64,000 nt of DNA from Syntrophus aciditrophicus SB (GTDB lineage Bacteria > Desulfobacterota > Syntrophia > Syntrophales > Syntrophaceae), in the NCBI RefSeq assembly GCF_000013405.1, contig NC_007759.1, positions 2,915,001-2,979,000 of the forward strand, read 5' to 3'. Positions 6,060 to 40,387 of this stretch are shown here, piece by piece. How positions within the stretch are numbered: the first letter of the stretch is position 1; each line of letters starts with the position of its first letter. Made by a program: the position numbers and the translations under genes. Below the pieces are notes generated by a model that was not told where the DNA came from, searched no databases, and was given only the letters and a program-made list of their open reading frames with translations.

Positions 6060-6880
6060 CCCAAAATTGACCACCCCAGAGCACCAGAGACCTGCTAAGA
6101 GGATGTGGTATTCCAGATCTTTCAAAGCAGGAAGAAGCGAACCGGGCAAGGAAAAAGCAAAAACCTCCAATGGATCGCCCAAAGTCTTCGTCTCTTGCCC
6201 GATCCGGTGGTCGGCGTTATGGATAGGCCGCAAAGCAAACCGGCTGACTTCTATCGTGAATTGGGAGAACTCTTCGGAGTGGGATTGACGCCCTTGAATC
6301 GCTATGACGGCTTCAAGGCCCTGCAAACAAAATGCAAAAATCACTGCCTATCCACGCTGGGCCGTCTGGTGCTGCTCATCAACGAAGCTCAGGAAGTATC
6401 GTCATCCTGTCTGACCGAACTGCGACTGCTGCAAAGCGCCACCTTCGATTCGGAAAGTATCCTATATACCATCCTTTGCGGCGGCGAATGTCTACCGGAA
6501 CGGTTCCGCACCCCGGAACTTCTCCCCCTGGGAAGCCGTATCCGAGTCCGACTCCAACTGGCGCCCGCTAACTCCGGAACAACTCCGGGAATACATCAGC
6601 TTCTCCCTGGAGCAGGCCGGAAACCCACACCTGATGACCCGGGAGCTGATTCAATCCTTGATCGAACGTTTTCTTAAGGAACTTCCGCCCATTGATGGGG
6701 CACGTTGGCTGCTTGAGCGGAAATATGGCACCGTTTCTTGTTAAAGAACAAATAGTTAAGTACATTTAGGCTTGTGCGAAAGTTAAGCTTATATGCATAA
6801 GGCGGTTAAGTACAAATTATTGCCGCCCCCACTGCACCCATGATAGGATGGCGAAAAATTCATAAAGAGGGACGGCATAT
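6029..6880. mobile_element. Degraded insertion-sequence remnant
   Basis: The left boundary carries two copies of an AAAATTGA(T/C)CA motif (about 6031 and 6063), like the multiple terminal repeats of IS21-type elements. The right part carries GTTAAGTACA twice (about 6754 and 6808). Between them is the broken AAA-type transposition ATPase at 6105-6742. No transposase gene remains. A 13-codon frame with a ribosome-binding site at 6880-6921 may be the start of another truncated gene. Element family is inferred from the ATPase and the terminal repeats only. Confidence 0.5.
6105..6742 (+). pseudogene. Transposition-associated AAA ATPase (TniB/ExeA-like), frameshifted and truncated
   Basis: From about 6220 one frame reads a recognisable ATPase middle: DFYRELGELFGV, then LVLLINEAQE (a Walker B-like strand with Asn in place of the usual Asp) and LTELRLLQSA, as in IstB/TniB/ExeA-type helper ATPases of insertion sequences. 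At about 6550 the homology moves to another frame (LTPEQLREYISFSLEQAGNP...HLMTRELIQSLIE), which ends at 6742. No Walker A loop is found upstream, so the N-terminal part is deleted or scrambled. With a deletion, a frameshift and a changed Walker B residue the gene is dead. Confidence 0.7.
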
Positions 6881-6916
6881 GCTCAAGGTGAACCTCAATG
6901 CGGGTAATCTTCGAAT

Positions 6917-31281: not shown

Positions 31282-32202
31282 TCAGGACTTGCTCCCCCGG
31301 AGATCCGCTTCACTGAGATCCACCCCGGTGAAATCCGCGTCACTGAGGTCTGTCTCGTTCAGCTTAGCGCCCTGGAGCCGCGCCCCGCGGAGACAGGTTT
31401 TGCCGAGATTCGCCTCTCTGAGATCCGCACCAGCTAAATTTGCATTCCCGAGATCCGCACCGCGGAGATCAGTTCCCCTGAGATTTGCTCTGTTGAGATT
31501 TGCGTCGACCAGATTCGCCCTGCTGAGATTCGCTTTTCTGAGATCCGCCCTTTTAAGGTATGCCTCGGAGAGGTCGGCTCCGCTAAGATTTGCCTCCCTG
31601 AGGCGTGTCCAGTTGAGATTTGCCTTGCTGAGGTTTGACTTTTGGAGATCCGCCCCGGTAAGATTCGCGTCGCTGAGATCCGCACCATGAAGATCAGCCT
31701 CTCTGAGATCCGTATTGCTGAGGTTGGCCTCGCTGAGATTCGCACCAATGAGTTTTGTCCGCCTCAGATTCTGTCCGCGGAGCTCAACCTCGTCGAGGTC
31801 CGTGTTGCTGAGATTGGCCTCTATGAGTTTCGTACCCCGAAGGTTCACTTTACTGAGGCATGTCCTTCGCAGATCCGCTTTGCCGAGATCCGCCTCACTG
31901 AGATCCGCTCCGTTGAGACATGCTTCCGAGAGGTCCGCTCCGACTAAATTCACACCTTTGAGATTAGCCCCGTTCAGATCCGCCTTGTGAAGGTTTGCCC
32001 CACTGAGGTCCGTCTCCTGGAGGTTCGCTTCACTCAGGTCGGCTTTCCCAAGGTCGGCATTGCAAAGGTCCATTCCGCCGAGGTCGGCCCGCCTGAGGTC
32101 AGGTACCTGCTCTGGATTCTGGAACCGCCATTGATTCCAAACCTTTCCCCCTTCTTTCAGAATTTCAGAATGATTCTTTTTCTTCACGGGACGCATTGCC
32201 AA
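31282..32202 (-). CDS. Pentapeptide-repeat protein
   Basis: A 306-residue protein that from about residue 35 to the end is an almost unbroken series of A(D/N)Lxx pentapeptides (LRRADLGGMDLCNADLGKAD and onward). Such proteins fold into a right-handed quadrilateral beta-helix. Functions in the family range from DNA mimicry to unknown; no catalytic motif is visible. The first 34 residues are basic (MRPVKKKNHSEILKEGGK). The repetitive DNA also creates spurious reading frames on the opposite strand. It lies 272 bases upstream of hgcA on the same strand, with no clear link in function. Confidence 0.9.
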   Translation of the reverse strand: MAMRPVKKKNHSEILKEGGKVWNQWRFQNPEQVPDLRRADLGGMDLCNADLGKADLSEANLQETDLSGANLHKADLNGANLKGVNLVGADLSEACLNGADLSEADLGKADLRRTCLSKVNLRGTKLIEANLSNTDLDEVELRGQNLRRTKLIGANLSEANLSNTDLREADLHGADLSDANLTGADLQKSNLSKANLNWTRLREANLSGADLSEAYLKRADLRKANLSRANLVDANLNRANLRGTDLRGADLGNANLAGADLREANLGKTCLRGARLQGAKLNETDLSDADFTGVDLSEADLRGSKS

Positions 32203-32269: not shown

Positions 32270-32810
32270 TCAATTACGCTGCGGAAGAAGGACTGGCATG
32301 GATTGTTGGAACTGCCACAGCCAGTTTTCAAACCAGCTAATTCCCTTTAATGCTGCAGAACCTTCGGACCAACCGGTTAACACAAATGCCTCCAGCATTT
32401 CATCCACGGCCTGCGGCAAGCCCACATCAACTGCTCTTGAAAAGATCGAACGTCCTATGTGCACTTCTTCCAGACACCTGGCAAATAAAACAGGGATAAC
32501 ATTCTTGTAGTTCAGACCGTGGCGGGCACTGAGCTTTATGCCAGTTTTCATGGCACGAAACGCTGCATCGTATATCCTTTGAATTTCACGATCAATTTCA
32601 TCTTTTTCGGTTGCATTGCAATATGTTCCGGTTTGGAGTTCCATTAAATCAGCCCCCACAGTCTTTCACGATGGCAACGGTCTCTGCATCAGGTTCAACC
32701 AGGATAGATAGCCCTATGTTCTGGTCATGAAATAATTTAACGGCATCCTTGATTTCAGACGCATGTTGTCCGATATCAAATCGGCCTCCGAAAGAACTAC
32801 CCGCAGATAT
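32270..32810 (-). pseudogene. Broken pdxJ-like gene (N-terminal half lost, one frameshift)
   Basis: The frame reading FGGRFDIGQHASEIKDAVKL, then LSILVEPDAETVAIVKDCG and, after a shift, ADLMELQTGTYCNAT and VHIGRSIFSRAVDVG matches the C-terminal half of PdxJ (pyridoxine 5'-phosphate synthase): EGG-x, LFIDPDPEQ, ELHTG and IGHA-type motifs are recognisable in diverged form. The shift lies in a run of five G residues at 32653-32657; four would restore the frame. Upstream, the reading frame meets a stop and the end of the arsR gene, so the N-terminal half is missing. The ELQTG (in place of ELHTG) change also suggests decay. A single-base sequencing error could explain the frameshift but not the truncation. 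Confidence 0.7.
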
Positions 32811-33135
32811 TCAGTTTCTTTATATCATCGAGCTTTTTTACATCCTCCCGGAATACGGGAAATTCGGTGAACTGTTGCTTCATAAAAATAAGCTGCGCAT
32901 TCATCGCACTGCCCAGCGGCTCTCGAAGAGAATAATGCATCCACGTTCCCACGCGTCTGCTTTGGACCATGCCGGAATTCTTAAGATAAGCCAGATGCCT
33001 TGATACTTTCGACTGACTTTCATCAAAGATTGACATCAATTCACACACACAGAGCTCACCATGAGTAAGAAGCATCACGATTCTCAGTCTCATCTCTTCG
33101 GAAAGGGCTTTATACATGCGGGTAAATTGTTCCAT
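32797..33135 (-). CDS. ArsR-family metalloregulator
   Basis: A 112-residue winged-helix repressor. The metal-binding ELCVCEL motif (two Cys in the recognition region, about residues 28-34) is that of ArsR-type As(III)/Sb(III) sensors; the DNA-recognition helix follows as SQSKVSRHLAYLKNSGMV. In the absence of metal it would bind its operator, and metal binding to the Cys pair releases it. A dyad (33156-33176) lies just upstream of its start and is a candidate autoregulatory operator. It may also control the adjacent Sec/permease unit. Confidence 0.9.
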   Translation of the reverse strand: MEQFTRMYKALSEEMRLRIVMLLTHGELCVCELMSIFDESQSKVSRHLAYLKNSGMVQSRRVGTWMHYSLREPLGSAMNAQLIFMKQQFTEFPVFREDVKKLDDIKKLNICG

Positions 33136-33258: not shown

Positions 33259-33309
33259 AAAAAAAATCGGCCGAAACGATTTGCATATCCGCAAACGAAA
33301 CCGGCCGAT
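33259..33309 (-). terminator. Rho-independent terminator after the double-UGA gene
   Basis: Arms TCGGCCG (33267-33273) and CGGCCGA (33302-33308) with a nested TTTGC/GCAAA pair are followed on the minus strand by a run of eight T (33259-33266). It closes the MarR-permease-DUF2703-selenoprotein transcription unit. Confidence 0.7.
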
Positions 33310-33381
33310 CATCATCTTTTCCGTCCCTGGAGCCATGCCCCTGTCGACAGGAAGCATAAACTATCGATATTCCCTAAGCTA

Positions 33382-33696
33382 TTACTTTTCCTCCGAGGAC
33401 TCTCTTTCTTTTTTACGCTTCTCCATTAATTCGTAATACTCTTGATACATTTTCAGAACGGCATATTCGTAATCTCTGACACTGTTCGGAGGAATGTAAT
33501 TGACTTCTCCTAATTGGCTTATCAGATATTTTCCCGTTTCCGAATCAGGGATTTTACCTTCCTTGTAGGCATGTTCGAAAATGTTGTTCAAGCCTGTTAC
33601 ACTGACCTTGGAACCATCAGGAAAGAATACGGCACGGTATTCTTGAGGTTCTCCCGGTCATCAGAAACAGGAGCCTAAATTTATTTGTGGCGACAT
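33382..33696 (-). CDS. Candidate selenoprotein with two adjacent Sec (UGA UGA) codons
   Basis: From an ATG at 33696, with a perfect AGGAGGT six bases upstream, the frame reads M-S-P-Q-I-N-L-G-S-C-F, then TGA TGA (33661-33663 and 33658-33660), then PGEPQEYRAVFFPDGSKVS and on to a TAA at 33382. Reading both UGA as selenocysteine gives 104 residues, C-F-U-U-P-G at residues 10-15. A perfect 8-bp hairpin (33623-33644) begins 13 bases after the second UGA, with a six-base loop, where a bacterial SECIS should be. The C-terminal NYIPPNSVRDYEYAVLKMYQ resembles small proteins of anaerobes in which I recall Cys-rich motifs at this point (not verified). It is the last gene of a MarR/permease/DUF2703 unit. 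Confidence 0.72.
33623..33644 (-). promoter_or_regulatory. SECIS-like hairpin in the double-UGA gene
   Basis: On the minus strand AAGAATAC, a loop of CGTGCC and GTATTCTT form a perfect 8-bp stem, starting 13 bases downstream of the second UGA. Bacterial SECIS elements are short stem-loops immediately after the UGA with a G/U-containing apical loop, which this has. Confidence 0.55.
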
Positions 33697-33751
33697 GGCT
33701 CAACCTCCTAAAATTCAATTTGTTTTATTTTTTACTGCTTTCTCCCGGCTG

Positions 33752-34144
33752 TCAACCTGAAAAAAGTTCAGCCGCAGCCCGAAGGCCCGCCTGAATAACC
33801 AGGTTTTCCGGTATTTCCTCGTACGTATTATTCCCGATGGAAAGGGTTCTGCACTCGGAATCCGCACAGGCACCGCAGCATGGACTTTGACCGACCGTTG
33901 CCCCAATCCATTCTTCCAAAGGTTTTTCTCCAATCCAGATGCGATTGGATTCAAGAGGCTCCCGGCTGAACATGGGAAAGTCGAGAGCTTCTGTTTTCAC
34001 CGTGACTTCAATGCCAAGTTCCACCAGGGCTTTTTTGAGCTTGTTGACGGCGCTCTGAATCGTTTCACCGGTCAAACCGCAACGCTCGCAGGTCCGCCCC
34101 TGCTCGTTGACAAGCCTTTTCCAGCGAACCGTCAGTGTTTTCAT
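33752..34144 (-). CDS. DUF2703 protein, Cys-rich, likely metal or arsenic related
   Basis: A 130-residue protein matching DUF2703. It contains CERCGLTGETI at about 20-30 and the later segment SPCCGACADSECRTL with four Cys, typical of the family. Its function is unproven, but it sits between a Cys-rich permease and a candidate selenoprotein in a MarR-regulated unit next to arsR and ACR3 genes, so a role in handling a soft metal(loid) is inferred. A GGGGGTGA element precedes the ATG. Confidence 0.75.
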   Translation of the reverse strand: MKTLTVRWKRLVNEQGRTCERCGLTGETIQSAVNKLKKALVELGIEVTVKTEALDFPMFSREPLESNRIWIGEKPLEEWIGATVGQSPCCGACADSECRTLSIGNNTYEEIPENLVIQAGLRAAAELFSG

Positions 34145-34239: not shown

Positions 34240-35358
34240 CTAATAGATAAAAATATCAACAAGATAGCCTGCAACGACGGCGATCAGAAAAACGTTCAGG
34301 GCAAAAGCGATAATCAGTTTCTTCCTGAACATGGCGGAGAGAATGATCAACTCCGGAATGCTTGCCCCGGCTCCTCCGATGACGAGCGCCAGGACCGTAC
34401 CCACCCCCATGCCTTTGCCGACAAGGGCCGCGCTGATGGGGATCACCGTCTCGGCACGGATGTACATGGGAACGCCAATGAACGCCGCAATGGGAATGGA
34501 CCAGGGATTTCCCGGTCCGGCCAGGCGGACGACGAGGTCCTGCGGGAAAAAGCCGTAGATGAAAGCGCCGATGCCCGCGCCGAGCAAGAGATACCAGAAC
34601 ACGCCCTTGAATGTGTCCACGGCAGAGGCAGCAGCTCTTTTGATTTTTTCCTTTAACGGCGCTTTCGCCGACTCGCCGGCCTCGAAGCTGACGGAACAGC
34701 AGGACGACGAAGACGAATTCTGCACGGTCGCAACAGTCTCCCCGCAGCAGCAGCTTCCCTGAGACTGAAAAGAAGGCAGCGTAACGAGAGGCAAAGGCTG
34801 AACAGAGGGTTGAGTGCCTTCGGAAGAACAGCAGCCGGACGCCATGGGAAGGATTTTCAGGGGTGTCGCTTCAGATTTTTTTTCTTCCGGACAGCATGAG
34901 GACTGAAAATTCACAAGGGGCTTGACCTCTCCCTCCAACCCCAACTTCGACAACAGGGCTGCCGTAGCCATGGAACCCAGGTAGGTGACCACGACATAGA
35001 TTCCTGTTACCTGATAGCCAAAGAGCGAGAGCAGCAGTGCGATGATGATCGGGTTGAGAACCGGCGAAGCGAACAGGAATGCCATGGTGGGACCGAAGGG
35101 AACACCGCCGCGGAGCAAACCCGCCGTAATGGGCACGGTGGAACAGGAGCAGAACGGCGTGACCGCACCCAACCCGGAACCCAGGAGATATTGCACCCAG
35201 GAGAGCCGATTGGAGAGGAAATCCCTGATTCGGGATGGAGGAAGATATTCCATCAGCAGCCCTATGATAAAGGAAACCGCGATAAAGATCAGGATCAGCT
35301 CGCCGGCGATCACCAGAAAAAATTTCCCCGCCACGACAAAATTATTCAGTCCCAACAT
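34240..35358 (-). CDS. Permease (ArsP/SO_0444-type) with Cys-rich cytoplasmic loop
   Basis: A 372-residue integral membrane protein of the DUF318-type permease superfamily with about eight helices. The TPFCSCSTVPITAGLL motif (about residue 66) supplies the conserved Cys pair of ArsP-like organoarsenical or metal efflux proteins. Between helix 4 and helix 5 there is a long loop, about residues 135-245, with CC or CCC groups (SSCCPEE, SGCCSSEG, GSCCCGE, SSCCSV), reminiscent of SO_0444-type Cu/Zn efflux proteins. The gene is 95 bases upstream of DUF2703 and follows MarR, so it is probably induced by its substrate. Confidence 0.82.
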   Translation of the reverse strand: MLGLNNFVVAGKFFLVIAGELILIFIAVSFIIGLLMEYLPPSRIRDFLSNRLSWVQYLLGSGLGAVTPFCSCSTVPITAGLLRGGVPFGPTMAFLFASPVLNPIIIALLLSLFGYQVTGIYVVVTYLGSMATAALLSKLGLEGEVKPLVNFQSSCCPEEKKSEATPLKILPMASGCCSSEGTQPSVQPLPLVTLPSFQSQGSCCCGETVATVQNSSSSSCCSVSFEAGESAKAPLKEKIKRAAASAVDTFKGVFWYLLLGAGIGAFIYGFFPQDLVVRLAGPGNPWSIPIAAFIGVPMYIRAETVIPISAALVGKGMGVGTVLALVIGGAGASIPELIILSAMFRKKLIIAFALNVFLIAVVAGYLVDIFIY

Positions 35359-35412: not shown

Positions 35413-35925
35413 TCAACCATTTCCCGGCAGATTTTTCTTTTCCATCAAACAGCAACGCACTTCTCCTTTCTGACCTTCATCAACTCCTTGCCGTTCTGCG
35501 GACTGAACAAAGGAACTCAGACTGAGTATCAGGATTTCACGAACAGTCGTATCCATATTGACAAGGATCTTCCGCATTTTATTTAAAAGTCGGTCTTCGA
35601 TCCGCTTCAGAAGCGTCCGGCCCTCTTCCGTCAAGGTAACACAGCAAATCCGTCCATCTTTCCGATCCTGTTGACGCTTCGCCAGTCCTTTGCCTTCAAG
35701 GCGTTTCGCAATGCGGGTCGCACCGCTCTTCGTAACGCCCGCGCTCTTTGCAATGTCCTGCATGGAGCAGATATCGCAATCCAATGCGGCCTGCAGGGCG
35801 CGGTACTCTGCATGGGAAATGTTTTCGCTGCAGCATTGTTCCTCCATGCTTTGCATCCCGAAAGTGTACGTTATTTTTTCTATTAATCCGATAAGTTGTC
35901 CCGCATGCGCATCCATCGGCGACAT
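35413..35925 (-). CDS. MarR-family regulator
   Basis: A 170-residue winged-helix regulator. The helix-turn-helix reads DIAKSAGVTKSGATRIAKRL and the wing is QQDRKDGRICCVTLTEEG, with the Asp-Arg-Lys-Asp-Gly-Arg signature. Cys residues at EEQCCSEN and near the C terminus (VRCCLME) could sense thiol-reactive metal(loid)s or electrophiles. A perfect dyad, AGTTGAC-CAT-GTCAACT, 74 bases upstream of the start, is a typical MarR site. The permease gene follows 54 bases downstream. Confidence 0.88.
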   Translation of the reverse strand: MSPMDAHAGQLIGLIEKITYTFGMQSMEEQCCSENISHAEYRALQAALDCDICSMQDIAKSAGVTKSGATRIAKRLEGKGLAKRQQDRKDGRICCVTLTEEGRTLLKRIEDRLLNKMRKILVNMDTTVREILILSLSSFVQSAERQGVDEGQKGEVRCCLMEKKNLPGNG

Positions 35926-36106: not shown

Positions 36107-36481
36107 ATGAACGACTTTCTGAAAGTGACCAAGGCTCTCTCCGACCCGAACCGGGTCAAAATTCTGAAGATGCTGCAGCACAAGGTCATGTGCGTCTGTG
36201 AAATCGAGGCCGCCCTGGGCATTGCCCAGCCGACGGCTTCCAAGCACTTGAAAAGACTGGAAGAGGCCGGATTGATCGATTCCCGGCGTGAAGGCAAATG
36301 GATCAACCACTATCCAGCCGACGGCAAGGACAGCCCCTATGCCGCGACTCTGTTGGGCAATCTCCGACACTGGCTGGAAGACGACGCCGAGATACGTCAA
36401 CTCATCGAAAAGATCCCTTGTATCAGACGGGAGGAAATCTCATGCCACAAGGAAGAGGTCTGCGAAGAATCAGGATACTGA
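36107..36481 (+). CDS. arsR: ArsR-family arsenic-responsive repressor
   Basis: A 124-residue winged-helix repressor with the As(III)-binding motif MCVCEIEAALG (about residues 28-38) and the recognition helix QPTASKHLKRLEEAGL. The C-terminal extra Cys residues (IPCIRREE, SCHKEEVCEE) may add a metal site. It is the first gene of a rightward unit that continues with ACR3, an ArsP-like permease and thiol proteins, so it should repress that unit until As(III) or a similar metalloid binds. Confidence 0.92.
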   Translation: MNDFLKVTKALSDPNRVKILKMLQHKVMCVCEIEAALGIAQPTASKHLKRLEEAGLIDSRREGKWINHYPADGKDSPYAATLLGNLRHWLEDDAEIRQLIEKIPCIRREEISCHKEEVCEESGY

Positions 36482-36595
36482 ACACATTTCCAAGCGGAAA
36501 TATGATTTGACGCAGATTTCAGCATGAAGATGATTTTTGCTTCAATGTGGTGCGAGACGGTCATATGCTCAGGCAGAAGGAGGAGCGGAAAAAAA

Positions 36596-37687
<1,092 letters not shown>

Positions 37688-37710: not shown

Positions 37711-38886
37711 TTGAAAGAGCGTTATAAACTTTTAATTATTGCGCTGACCTTTCTGGGGGCCTACTTCATCCCCTGGACTCATCCCGTTATCCGCCAATCC
37801 GGCCTGGAGGCCTTCCTGATGCTCCAGGAATACGCGCAACAGCACGTCCTGACCTGCCTGATCCCTGCGTTTTTTATCGCTGGGGCCATCGCTGTCTTTG
37901 TCTCCCAGGCTTCGGTGCTGAAGTACTTCGGGTCCACAGCAAACAAGATCCTGTCCTACTCCGTGGCCTCGGTGTCCGGAACGGTGCTTGCCGTGTGTTC
38001 CTGCACCGTGCTTCCTCTTTTTGCCGGGATTTACGTCCGGGGAGCCGGCATCGGTCCCGCGACGGCCTTTCTCTATTCCGGCCCGGCCATCAACGTCATG
38101 GCGATCGTGCTGACGGCGAGGGTGCTCGGATGGCAACTGGGATTGGCCAGGGCGATAGGCGCGATTGTTTTCGCTGTTATCGCCGGCCTCCTGATGGCCC
38201 TGATTTTTCGGCGGGATGACGCCAACCGGGTCCAGGGAGCCGTCTATATCCCGGACATGCATTCCAACTCCCGCACCCTTGCCCAGGATGGCATTTATCT
38301 GTTTACCCTGGTGTTCATCCTGATCTTCGCCGCCTTTGCCCGGCCGGCACCCGGTATTACCGGCATATGGGCGGTCCTGTTTGCCGCAAAATGGTTCATC
38401 ACAGCGGGTCTTCTGATCCTGCTCGGGTTCATGCTGAAGTCCTGGTTCACCCGGGAAGAACTGACCAGCTGGGTGGACGCGACCTGGGGGTTCGCAAAGC
38501 AGATCTTTCCGCTCCTGCTGGGCGGCGTTCTGGTAGCGGGCTTTCTACTGGGGCGTCCCGGTCATCCGGCGCTGATTCCGGAACAGTACATTCAGGCCCT
38601 GGTGGGCGGAAATTCCTTCTGGGCGAACTTCTTCGCCTCGATCGTCGGCGCTTTCATGTATTTCGCCACCCTGACGGAAGTGCCCATCCTTCAGGGACTG
38701 ATCGGCTCGGGTATGGGACAGGGCCCTGCTCTTGCCCTCCTTCTTGCCGGACCGGCGCTCTCCCTGCCCAGCATGATCGTGATTTCTCAAGTGATGGGGG
38801 TGAAAAAGACGGTCGTTTATTGCGCTATCGTTGTTCTGCTTTCCACCCTGGCGGGATACGGCTACGGATGGTTGGTTTCCTGCTGA
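37711..38886 (+). CDS. ArsP-like permease (DUF318 family)
   Basis: A 391-residue membrane protein with about eight to ten helices. The conserved motif VLAVCSCTVLPLFAGIYVRG (about residue 95) holds the Cys pair of ArsP-type organoarsenical efflux permeases, and the second half repeats it with TLTEVPILQGLIGSGMGQGP. It starts with TTG at 37711, preceded by AGGAG at the right distance, 23 bases after acr3. ArsP exports trivalent methylated or aromatic arsenicals; in this cluster it could export methylated products, for example from methyltransferases. The exact substrate is inferred. Confidence 0.87.
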   Translation: MKERYKLLIIALTFLGAYFIPWTHPVIRQSGLEAFLMLQEYAQQHVLTCLIPAFFIAGAIAVFVSQASVLKYFGSTANKILSYSVASVSGTVLAVCSCTVLPLFAGIYVRGAGIGPATAFLYSGPAINVMAIVLTARVLGWQLGLARAIGAIVFAVIAGLLMALIFRRDDANRVQGAVYIPDMHSNSRTLAQDGIYLFTLVFILIFAAFARPAPGITGIWAVLFAAKWFITAGLLILLGFMLKSWFTREELTSWVDATWGFAKQIFPLLLGGVLVAGFLLGRPGHPALIPEQYIQALVGGNSFWANFFASIVGAFMYFATLTEVPILQGLIGSGMGQGPALALLLAGPALSLPSMIVISQVMGVKKTVVYCAIVVLLSTLAGYGYGWLVSC

Positions 38887-38950: not shown

Positions 38951-39196
38951 ATGAAAATCAAAGTGTTGGGCCCGGGATGCGCCCGTTGCAATCAAACGGA
39001 ACAGCTCATCCGGGAAACCGTCGCCGAGGCCGGTGTGGATGCGGAAATCGAAAAGGTGACCGAGGTCATGAAGATCGCTCAATACGGCGTCTTCGGCACA
39101 CCGGCGGTGGTGATCGACGAGGAAGTGAAGTCCGTGGGGAAAATCCCCAGGAAGGAAGAAATCCTGGCCTGGATCAAGGAAAAATCAGCAGCATGA
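38951..39196 (+). CDS. Small thioredoxin-like protein (TM0996/MTH895 type)
   Basis: An 81-residue thioredoxin-fold protein with the redox motif GPGCARCNQTE (CARC at about 10-13) and a cis-Pro GTPAVVIDEE. Proteins of this type reduce disulfides or bind thiol-reactive metalloids and often sit next to ArsP-like permeases. AGGAGG precedes the ATG at good spacing. It is the fourth gene of the arsR unit. Confidence 0.9.
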   Translation: MKIKVLGPGCARCNQTEQLIRETVAEAGVDAEIEKVTEVMKIAQYGVFGTPAVVIDEEVKSVGKIPRKEEILAWIKEKSAA

Positions 39197-39268: not shown

Positions 39269-39346
39269 ATGAAGAACAACCTGTCAGAAGAGGCGCCTTG
39301 TTGCTGCGTCTCCGATCCGGAAAAGGCTGCAAGGGTGAGACCATGA
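39269..39346 (+). CDS. 25-residue peptide with CCC motif, translationally coupled to the HesB-like gene
   Basis: A tiny frame from an ATG at 39269 (AGGGGAAA upstream) reading EEAPCCCVSDPEKAARVRP and ending in TGA that overlaps the ATG of the next gene (ATGA at 39343-39346). The overlap and the ribosome-binding site suggest it is translated, perhaps only to couple ribosome entry into the selenoprotein gene; the three Cys fit the Cys-rich theme of the cluster. No family known. Confidence 0.4.
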   Translation: MKNNLSEEAPCCCVSDPEKAARVRP

Positions 39347-39654
39347 TCGAAGTCACAGAAAAGGCGGCGCAGGCGCTCAAGGAGCTTCTGAAAAACCGGA
39401 AAGCTCCCGGCACAATCAGAATCCGTTCGCAGAGGGGATGCTGAGGGGCTTCTCTGGTCATGGCCCTGGATGAGCCGAAGGAAAACGATACAGTATTTAC
39501 GGAACGGGGCATCACCTTCGCGATAGACAAGGATCTTCTGGAAGCTATCAAGCCTGTTTGGATCGATTTCGTTGACTTGGGAGGGCAGTCAGGATTTCTA
39601 TTGACCCCTAAGGATGAGCTGCCTTCTCTGACCGGTCTTCAGGATTTCAAGTAA
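39343..39654 (+). CDS. HesB/IscA-like selenoprotein, first copy (UGA read as Sec)
   Basis: From the ATG at 39343 the frame is open to TAA at 39652-39654 apart from one TGA at 39442-39444 (codon 34). It starts MIEVTEKAAQALKELLKN and continues after the UGA as GASLVMALDEPKENDTVFTE, giving 103 residues with Cys-Sec-Gly at 33-35. HesB-like selenoproteins of deltaproteobacteria are a described family with Sec in exactly this CUG position. A hairpin GGGC/GCCC (39446-39466) with GGTC in its loop follows the UGA at SECIS distance. Iron-sulfur or metal(loid) binding is inferred from the A-type carrier fold; the usual C-terminal Cys pair of IscA is absent. Confidence 0.85.
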
Positions 39655-39772: not shown

Positions 39773-40018
39773 ATGGGAGAAAAGATCAGGATCTACGGAA
39801 CGGAAATGTGTCCCTTCTGCAGAAAGGCACGTGAGGCCTACGGGGAGAAGGCCGTTTTCATCAATGTCGGAGGCGATCCGGAAAAGCTTGCAGAGATGCT
39901 CGCCTATTCCGGCGGCAACAGGACCGTGCCTGTCATCGTGGACGGCGATAAGGTGACGGTCGGCTTTCTCGGGGATTCCTCTTCACAGGGGAACGTCCCG
40001 CTTTTCGGGGGCGGATGA
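39773..40018 (+). CDS. UXX-star family glutaredoxin-like protein, cysteine form
   Basis: An 81-residue glutaredoxin-fold protein with TEMCPFCRKAREAYGEKA (redox CPFC at about 11-14), FINVGGDPEKLAEML and the late motif TVPVIVDGDKVTVGFLG. This matches the UXX-star family, in which many members carry selenocysteine at the first position of the motif; here it is a true Cys (TGT). AGGAGG lies six bases before the ATG at 39773. It lies between two UGA-containing HesB-like genes, so all three probably work together in selenium- or metalloid-related thiol chemistry. Confidence 0.85.
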   Translation: MGEKIRIYGTEMCPFCRKAREAYGEKAVFINVGGDPEKLAEMLAYSGGNRTVPVIVDGDKVTVGFLGDSSSQGNVPLFGGG

Positions 40019-40078
40019 GCGGTCTGAACAGGGCTCTCGGTGAGAGACCCACTATTTTTTATTACGGAGGAAGAAATC

Positions 40079-40387
40079 ATGATAGAAGTCACGGAAAAAG
40101 CGGCGCAGATGATCAAGGAGTTTATGGAAAACCAGCAGGGACCAGGCACGGTGAGAATCCTTCTCCAATCCTGTTGAGGCCCGCCTTCTCTGGCAATGGC
40201 TCTGGATGAGCCTAAAGAAAACGATACGGTCTTCACGGAAAAGGATATCAACTTCGCGATAGACAGAGATCTCCTGGAAAAGGCCAAACCGATCCGGTTG
40301 GATTTTGTCGAAGCGTGTGGGCAATCAGGATTTCAATTGACCTCGAATCTTCCGGAGGAAGGCGGCGGAGGCGGCTGCTGTTCCTGA
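40079..40387 (+). CDS. HesB/IscA-like selenoprotein, second copy (UGA read as Sec)
   Basis: ATG at 40079, with GGAGGAAG nearby upstream, opens a frame with a single in-frame TGA at 40175-40177 (codon 33) and a true TGA stop at 40385. It is a paralogue of the first copy: MIEVTEKAAQMIKEFMEN before the UGA, GPPSLAMALDEPKENDTVF after it, Cys-Sec-Gly at 32-34. Length 102 residues. The C terminus adds EEGGGGGCCS, two vicinal Cys not present in the first copy. A weaker SECIS-like hairpin (GCC at 40183-40185 pairing with GGC at 40198-40200, TGGCA in the loop) follows. The two copies differ enough to be an old duplication. Confidence 0.85.

Follow-up and report, generated by a model that had tools for sequence, protein, structure and literature searches.

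A small gene in the genome of Syntrophus aciditrophicus, interrupted in frame by two consecutive UGA codons, very likely encodes a selenoprotein with adjacent selenocysteines, Sec12 and Sec13, both UGAs being read by SelB and tRNA-Sec by way of a single SECIS hairpin. The identity of both residues as Sec is inferred, without a selenium or protein measurement. The gene, referred to here as the UU gene, lies within the window, which is the whole 64,000-nucleotide stretch of DNA that was analyzed (C1:2915001-2979000 of genome G000, a single contig of 3,179,300 bases). Translation through UGA UGA, constraint on the hairpin at the RNA level, the existence of Cys-Cys relatives and an arsenic neighborhood are all shown by the sequence evidence. 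The reading as a whole, that of an arsenic-resistance double-Sec selenoprotein whose selenol pair acts as an arsenic ligand, is favored by a modest margin, its chemistry being inferred.

The gene resides on the minus strand (Table 1), and its translation runs MSPQINLGSCF-UGA-UGA-PGEPQEYRAVFFPDG... up to TAA, with 91 sense codons between the second UGA and the TAA. The protein thus read, MSPQINLGSCFUUPGEPQEYRAVFFPDG..., consists of an N-terminal tail carrying Cys10 and Sec12-Sec13, followed in the structural model by a predicted beta-hairpin and helices. An earlier note, made from the sequence alone, had described the TGA TGA, an AGGAGGT six bases before the ATG, a perfect 8-bp stem with a six-base loop at a 13-nt offset, and a terminator after the gene. 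Each of these held, the terminator as a hairpin with a U run, although a terminator scan confined to loops of 3-8 did not list it. The note did not give the strand; a plus-strand reading of the gene was rejected. TGATGA occurs at 77 sites on the two strands of the window and is followed by at least 60 open codons at 13 of them; an in-frame start with a Shine-Dalgarno-like site precedes two of these 13, one being the UU gene. At the other, on the plus strand at 1851, the start lies 43 codons upstream, as against 11 in the UU gene.

Table 1. Features of the UU gene and of the surrounding arsenic neighborhood, in positions of the window.
Feature	Position	Strand	Remarks
UU gene	33382..33696	-	104 codons (both UGAs counted) plus TAA; ATG at 33696-33694, TAA at 33384-33382
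Ribosome-binding site AGGAGGT	33703..33709	-	ends six bases 5' of the UU gene ATG
First in-frame UGA (putative Sec12)	33661..33663	-	24 nt ahead of the hairpin loop; TGA in 5/5 UU genes
Second in-frame UGA (putative Sec13)	33658..33660	-	21 nt ahead of the hairpin loop; TGA in 5/5 UU genes
SECIS hairpin	33623..33644	-	stem AAGAATAC/GTATTCTT, loop CGTGCC (second loop base G, followed by U)
Terminator-like hairpin with a U run, 3' of the UU gene	33259..33310	-	-23.5 kcal/mol, z -3.4
ArsR-type regulator, downstream of the UU gene	32797..33135	-	NF033788, E 1.3e-25, 89 bits vs 55
DUF2703 protein, immediately 5' of the UU gene	33752..34144	-	PF10865, E 6.4e-40
ArsP_1 permease	34240..35358	-	PF03773, E 8.4e-56
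MarR regulator, head of the unit	35413..35925	-	PF01047, E 3.9e-10
Second ArsR-like regulator, divergent arsenic unit	36107..36481	+	open frame
ACR3 arsenite efflux transporter	36524..37687	+	TIGR00832, E 3.2e-136
Second ArsP_1 permease	37711..38886	+	PF03773, E 2e-74
MTH895/ArsE-type thioredoxin	38951..39196	+	TIGR00412, 99.7 bits vs 62

Orthologues were sought in 155 genomes of the order, with 119 relatives in one of the searches, and TGATGA copies of the gene were recovered in four genomes, giving five genes in all (G000, G395, two in G397, and G398). The five proteins share the consensus MSPQI.LG.CFUUPG.PQEYR.VFFPD, in which both UGAs are invariant. Across codons 26-95, pN is 0.06-0.19 and pS 0.52-0.73 in all ten pairs of UU genes. 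Within codons 14-25, which contain the hairpin, pS is 0 in six of the ten pairs and 0.25 in the other four, all of which involve L086, while pN is 0 except in four pairs with L087 (0.07). When only codons with a conserved amino acid are considered, two of nine vary in codons 14-24, compared with five of eight upstream of the UGAs and 26 of 44 beyond codon 24. It follows from this pattern that the frame past the UGAs is translated and under strong purifying selection, and that the hairpin is constrained as RNA.

These data bear directly on the possibility that UGA UGA is a genuine stop, in which case the gene would specify a short peptide or be decayed, its remainder untranslated or reinitiated. 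In support of this view, UGA is a stop in the standard bacterial code, and a TTG at codon 36 in all five UU genes could in principle permit reinitiation. However, strong purifying selection is seen past the UGAs in ten of ten comparisons, none of the five genes has an ATG, GTG or TTG within codons 14-32, conservation extends to the tail that precedes the UGAs, and the Cys-Cys relatives read through the same columns. A pseudogene or true stop was rejected on the basis of dN/dS and the orthologues, and this alternative can be regarded as all but excluded.

The hairpin that follows the two UGAs conforms to the published geometry of bacterial SECIS elements, which specifies a loop of 3-9 nt, a stem of 4-16 bp, a G in the first two loop positions and a distance of 16-37 nt from the UGA (PMC13188914). 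In the UU gene, the perfect 8-bp stem begins 13 nt past the second UGA and bears a 6-nt loop starting CGU..., and both UGAs fall within the loop range of the model at 24 and 21 nt. The published energy threshold is -7.5 kcal/mol or below, although the stretch that is meant is unstated in the passage (PMC13188914); the isolated UU stem, at -6.1 kcal/mol, lies above it, and the 67-nt fold that includes the UGAs reaches -23.2 kcal/mol. Hairpins at least as good as -6.1 kcal/mol accompany 6.3% of the window's TGAs, taken as background. A Watson-Crick stem of this length arose in 74 of 10,000 synonymous-codon randomizations, such that the hairpin by itself is moderately unusual, and two of 200 dinucleotide shuffles folded as well as the hairpin region. 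With G-U pairs allowed, a stem as long is ordinary (4740 of 10,000 randomizations), and the 60 nt past the UGAs likewise fold with an ordinary energy (1274 of 3000); both the whole-stretch folding energy and the G-U-allowed stem length were accordingly dropped as evidence. The significance of the hairpin rests on its conservation across orthologues rather than on randomization alone. All five UU genes fail strict hairpin criteria (stems of -6.1 or -5.8 kcal/mol) because their stems are A-U rich.

Relatives with cysteine at the UU positions provide a further line of evidence. The closest non-UU relative by tree path, L129, displays Cys-Cys at these columns, and its N-terminal sequence, MSAQINQGSGPCCAPVTEGYRLLTFPDG, aligns with that of the UU protein over the span given above. 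Both positions are Cys in seven such CC relatives, among them L129 and L023. A 66-row tree places the UU clade (support 100/100) inside a nine-row adjacent-pair set (95/84) comprising five UU, two CC (L023 and L129) and two Cys-Met (L022 and L025) members. This tree is built on 79 columns only, and its bootstrap is unsettled. Other CC-like rows are placed elsewhere in it, some on long branches, and the tree therefore leaves it unproven that adjacent pairs arose only once; nor does it fix whether Cys gave way to Sec or Sec to Cys. Two of these loci also harbor family members in which Sec is separated from a second Sec by four residues, the last of them Cys: L022:7602-8048 (GUVGGCU) and L023:958-1290 on the minus strand (GUAGGCU), the latter adjoining a CC paralogue.

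What the earlier note had not seen is that the UU gene is part of a far wider double-Sec family, made up of proteins of about 100 amino acids. A total of 81 distinct members were read out (63 and 18 from two collections, with further matching rows left out and tail-less fragments such as L061 and L084 excluded by filters), and 69 of them carry two in-frame UGAs in the N-terminal tail. By spacing, these are 44 U-x2-U, 15 U-x3-U plus L054 (so counted after correction of its start), four U-x4-U and five UU members; the remaining types are seven CC, two CPCMM, one TCAP, one SCVPP and one Leu-x2-U, the last being L034, whose tail reads GLITU and has Leu as the first residue of the pair. No instance of C-x2-C replacing U-x2-U was found among the 81 members read. 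Family matches at E <= 0.01 occur in 54 of 395 genomes of the phylum, fusion proteins included, and in the class containing G224 a member at E <= 1e-10 is present in 38 of 46 genomes. A scan of genome contigs returned 18 loci, some already known, and extends the family to one MAG each of Nitrospiraceae and Spirochaetes and to Desulfonema magnum.

Members of the spaced class possess a common hairpin of their own, unrelated in sequence to that of the UU gene, in which CCGAC-AGTTA-GTCGG, or a variant of it, arises from the codons that specify P-T/A-V-S/G-R/W (49 members). Over 42 distinct rows, 90.1% of cells are paired (shuffled mean 84.0), 19 cells are changed on both sides (shuffled mean 7.5) and covariation is 0.227 (shuffled 0.136); for none of these three measures was any of 500 shuffles as high, and 42 of 500 were as high when pairs changed on both sides were counted. 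Sliding the pairing partner lowers every measure, and one pair appears as A-U in 19 rows, G-C in 13, C-G in one and G-U in one, with eight unpaired. These statistics constitute support rather than proof, because related sequences can exceed shuffles without structure. Strict SECIS criteria are satisfied by 27 of 52 two-UGA members, compared with 88 of 2281 background TGAs, and a SECIS-type hairpin meeting them is also present in one of six CC members. The loop begins 21 nt after the second UGA in the window gene, and 17-21 nt after it in the spaced members that pass the scan.

The earlier note had proposed aligning homologues at the UGA positions and searching the genome for Sec machinery. The homologues carry Cys-Cys or Sec-Sec there, and the genome contains SelA (E 1.2e-151), SelB (E 9.7e-112), SelD (379.6 bits, its own gene having one in-frame TGA) and tRNA-Sec (77.4 bits; gathering score 47). 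The presence of SelB discriminates little, because SelB exceeds its cut-off in 353 of the phylum's 395 genomes; the SelB match is weak in two genomes that bear U-containing members, G286 (1.3e-26) and G266 (5.7e-36). It could be that only one UGA is decoded as Sec, the other being misread or suppressed, so that no true Sec-Sec pair exists. To our knowledge, double Sec insertion at adjacent codons by one bacterial SECIS has not been measured, and the Leu of L034 and the Cys-Met pairs of L022 and L025 also speak for a single Sec. Against this view, both positions are Cys in the seven CC relatives, both UGAs are retained in all five UU genes and two tail UGAs in most of the wider family, and both UGAs of the gene are suitably distant from the loop. 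A single Sec is consequently very unlikely, and the paired reading, which the note had put forward as a selenoprotein reading C-F-U-U-P-G with two vicinal Sec residues, is supported on sequence grounds, in the absence of selenium data.

Within the window, the UU gene is the last of a minus-strand row consisting of MarR, ArsP_1 permease, DUF2703 and the UU gene, with an ArsR gene further on. A divergent plus-strand row contains an ArsR-like gene, ACR3, a second ArsP_1 permease and an MTH895/ArsE thioredoxin; when used as a tblastn query, the ArsR-like gene matches largely the same neighbor genes as the first ArsR. Family matches bear out the note's MarR/permease/DUF2703 unit beside arsenic genes. 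Its two HesB-like selenoprotein genes in the window also held: HesB/IscA-type genes with an in-frame TGA lie at 39343-39651 and 40079-40384 on the plus strand (RGCU-GAS and QSCU-GPP), and both exceed the cut-off of NF038090 but not that of TIGR01911. The same strand encodes a member of UXX-star selenoprotein family 1 at 39773-40024, which ends GGGU-A-V-stop (NF041114, 80.9 bits; cut-off 72). On the minus strand are a C-terminal fragment of PdxJ near the UU gene (32270-32659; positions 143-233 of 234) and, at 31282-32202, what we take to be a long pentapeptide-repeat-like protein of ADLxxA units. PdxJ is also close to family members in L022 and L025.

Similar surroundings are found elsewhere in the family. 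Neighbor genes were counted by tblastn at 1e-4 within 8 kb of family members (loci L022-L079 without L061, plus L100-L109, with duplicates merged by hand), yielding a set of 52 genomes that excludes the window itself and later loci. ACR3 is present in 30 of these, ArsR in 22, an ArsE-type thioredoxin (fusions included) in 18, CcdA in 17, an iron-sulfur protein in 16, ArsP_1 in 14, ArsC in 13, ArsM in six and DUF2703 in five. At least one of ACR3, ArsP, ArsM and ArsC accompanies the family in 36 genomes. All four are absent within 8 kb in the other 16, some of which are on short contigs, and 13 genomes, again including short contigs, also lack ArsR, DUF2703 and ArsE within that distance. In many loci the nearest same-strand query gene is ACR3, ArsC or ArsE, often the very next gene. 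The frequency of ACR3 appears to be far above chance for a gene with one or two copies per genome, an inference drawn without a matched control of random loci. Among the other UU copies, L100 and L102 reside in arsenic loci and L101 near MarR, ArsR and DUF2703 genes; the 12-kb L103 locus has no match to any arsenic query gene. Moreover, nine loci encode the family domain as a fusion with an ArsE-type thioredoxin, and the three that were tested pass the TIGR00412 cut-off; by eye, the nine fused copies lack the N-terminal Sec/Cys pair. An association of the family with anaerobic arsenic-resistance loci that carry ACR3, ArsP and ArsE-type thioredoxins is therefore very likely.

Other small genes adjoin family members at some loci. 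On an approximate tblastn map, the U-x2-U genes L035:7623-7922, L043:7592-7972 and L049:6750-7049 are followed 17-70 bases on by a HesB-like gene, and no ACR3 was mapped at the L035 and L049 loci. Straight after the UU gene of L100 is a gene for a MoaD/SAMP1-like small modifier (6586-6891, plus strand; TIGR01687, 40.5 bits, below the cut-off of 49.5).

AlphaFold2 was applied to 19 sequences, with a mean pLDDT of 82.6; residues 1-15, including the UU pair, score below 50. Beyond residue 15 the UU protein is predicted to adopt two strands and three helices, and the pair lies in a tail predicted to be disordered. Foldseek returned no match at E <= 0.001 (top row TbiB1, E 0.5), and the best Z from VIA, for a homeodomain, was 6.2; a value of this size may reflect merely a common arrangement. 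A sequence match to the solved structure of human TPRKB (best E 0.005) was taken as chance.

Conceivably, the flexible vicinal selenol pair would act as a soft bidentate ligand that captures organoarsenicals or trivalent arsenic, the captured arsenical would be handed to an efflux permease (ACR3 or ArsP), and thioredoxin-type partners (ArsE, CcdA-fed) would hold the pair reduced. Metalloid ligation may fit better than a fixed redox motif, because the spacing of the pair ranges from 0 to 4 residues and the tail is flexible. In the absence of arsenic binding data, this capture-and-handover action is inferred, and the balance tips slightly against it. A redox relay is the principal competing function: the Sec pair would cycle between diselenol and diselenide, passing electrons from ArsE/CcdA-type thioredoxins to arsenate reductase or another oxidized partner encoded in the ars locus. 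Fusion of the domain to an ArsE-type thioredoxin favors the relay, as do the occurrence of CcdA in 17 and ArsC in 13 of the 52 genomes and the resemblance of U-x2-U to the CxxC redox motif. On the other hand, the pair spacing varies (0, 2, 3 or 4 residues), the tail is predicted to be disordered, and 39 of the 52 genomes showed no ArsC within 8 kb, leaving the relay, too, a little short of probable. The CcdA and thioredoxin neighbors fit an electron-transfer role as well as they fit a ligand role, and it is possible that both roles apply, if thioredoxin keeps the ligand reduced. A bolder version of the ligand reading, that a single in-frame SECIS yields Sec-Sec and that the pair is a dedicated selenium ligand for trivalent arsenic, remains a tentative proposal that we would not yet favor. 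If it were true, paired selenols (UU, U-x2-U, U-x3-U and U-x4-U) would serve arsenic handling in strict anaerobes as paired thiols do elsewhere.

If the decoding is as proposed, a single bacterial SECIS has to serve SelB at both of two neighboring codons, and the processivity of bacterial Sec insertion becomes testable: does a second SelB act on the same hairpin after a three-base step of the ribosome? The family supplies natural variants, with 0, 2, 3 or 4 residues within the Sec pair as well as Cys versions, and, through a protein whose gene is often found beside ACR3, it connects the chemistry of selenium with that of arsenic.

The UU protein is likely a member of a new, undescribed family, within the scope of the models and literature searched, because no model reaches its cut-off, a recent census lacks UU and no bacterial case was encountered in that literature. 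The protein has no match at E up to 1 in Pfam or in NCBIfam (June 2026), a library that includes UXX-star and Sao models, and the note's statement that it recognized no described family held for the Pfam and NCBIfam cut-offs. Four relatives gave four weak matches to unrelated Pfam/NCBIfam models, all far below cut-off. In PHROGs nothing exceeded the cut-off, the one match being phrog_3573 (E 0.094, function unknown); Rfam had no match in the window at the gathering cut-off, and a plasmid search found none for the window's UU protein or L066. The 2026 census lists 119 selenoprotein families, including three U-x2-U entries, with no UU motif in its table (PMC13188914), and the UU family is not among the names of the 19 selenoproteins listed for Syntrophus aciditrophicus (PMC1794560). 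A bacterial adjacent-Sec case was not seen in the part of the open-license literature covered, in which consecutive Sec residues are the subject of the algal PDI_e paper alone and tandem UGAs in a viral gene that of another. It may be that annotation pipelines truncate or skip the family, because no Pfam or NCBIfam model matches it.

Comparisons can nonetheless be drawn with several known systems. ArsD, a small metallochaperone of ars operons, likewise has a vicinal pair, of thiols, around residues 12-13. The UU protein differs from ArsD, for which there is a Pfam model, in having no Pfam or NCBIfam match at E up to 1. ArsA (PF02374) exceeds the cut-off in G000, but over only 36 positions in the best match or 128 of 305 in the longest, and all 14 control genomes match; long ArsA matches (E 5e-53 or better) occur in seven of ten genomes, not including G000, G395 and G397. 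An ArsD-like hand-over to ArsA is therefore unlikely in those three genomes, whose ArsA matches are merely partial and of the sort that control genomes also give, and an ArsD-ArsA chaperone model was rejected. The MTH895/ArsE thioredoxin (TIGR00412, PF13192) is fused to the family domain in several genomes and shares some of its loci, but the stand-alone UU-family proteins, unlike it, lack the thioredoxin domain at the level of sequence (TIGR00412 absent). The catalogued bacterial selenoproteins with two Sec or U-x2-U, namely the Prx-like U-x2-U, NF041115 metal-binding, FmdB (TIGR02605), MbdU (NF045648) and UXX-star families, resemble the UU family in having these features, and some are linked to metals; the UU protein is unlike them in matching no model and in carrying a motif that the census table lacks. 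Adjacent Sec-Sec itself is shared with algal PDI_e, which has a GUGUU motif and is called in its paper the first selenoprotein with two consecutive Sec (PMC7539508). That protein, however, is a eukaryotic protein disulfide isomerase served by its own SECIS elements, which in algal PDI_e lie in the 3' untranslated region, whereas the UU gene would rely on one hairpin within its reading frame.
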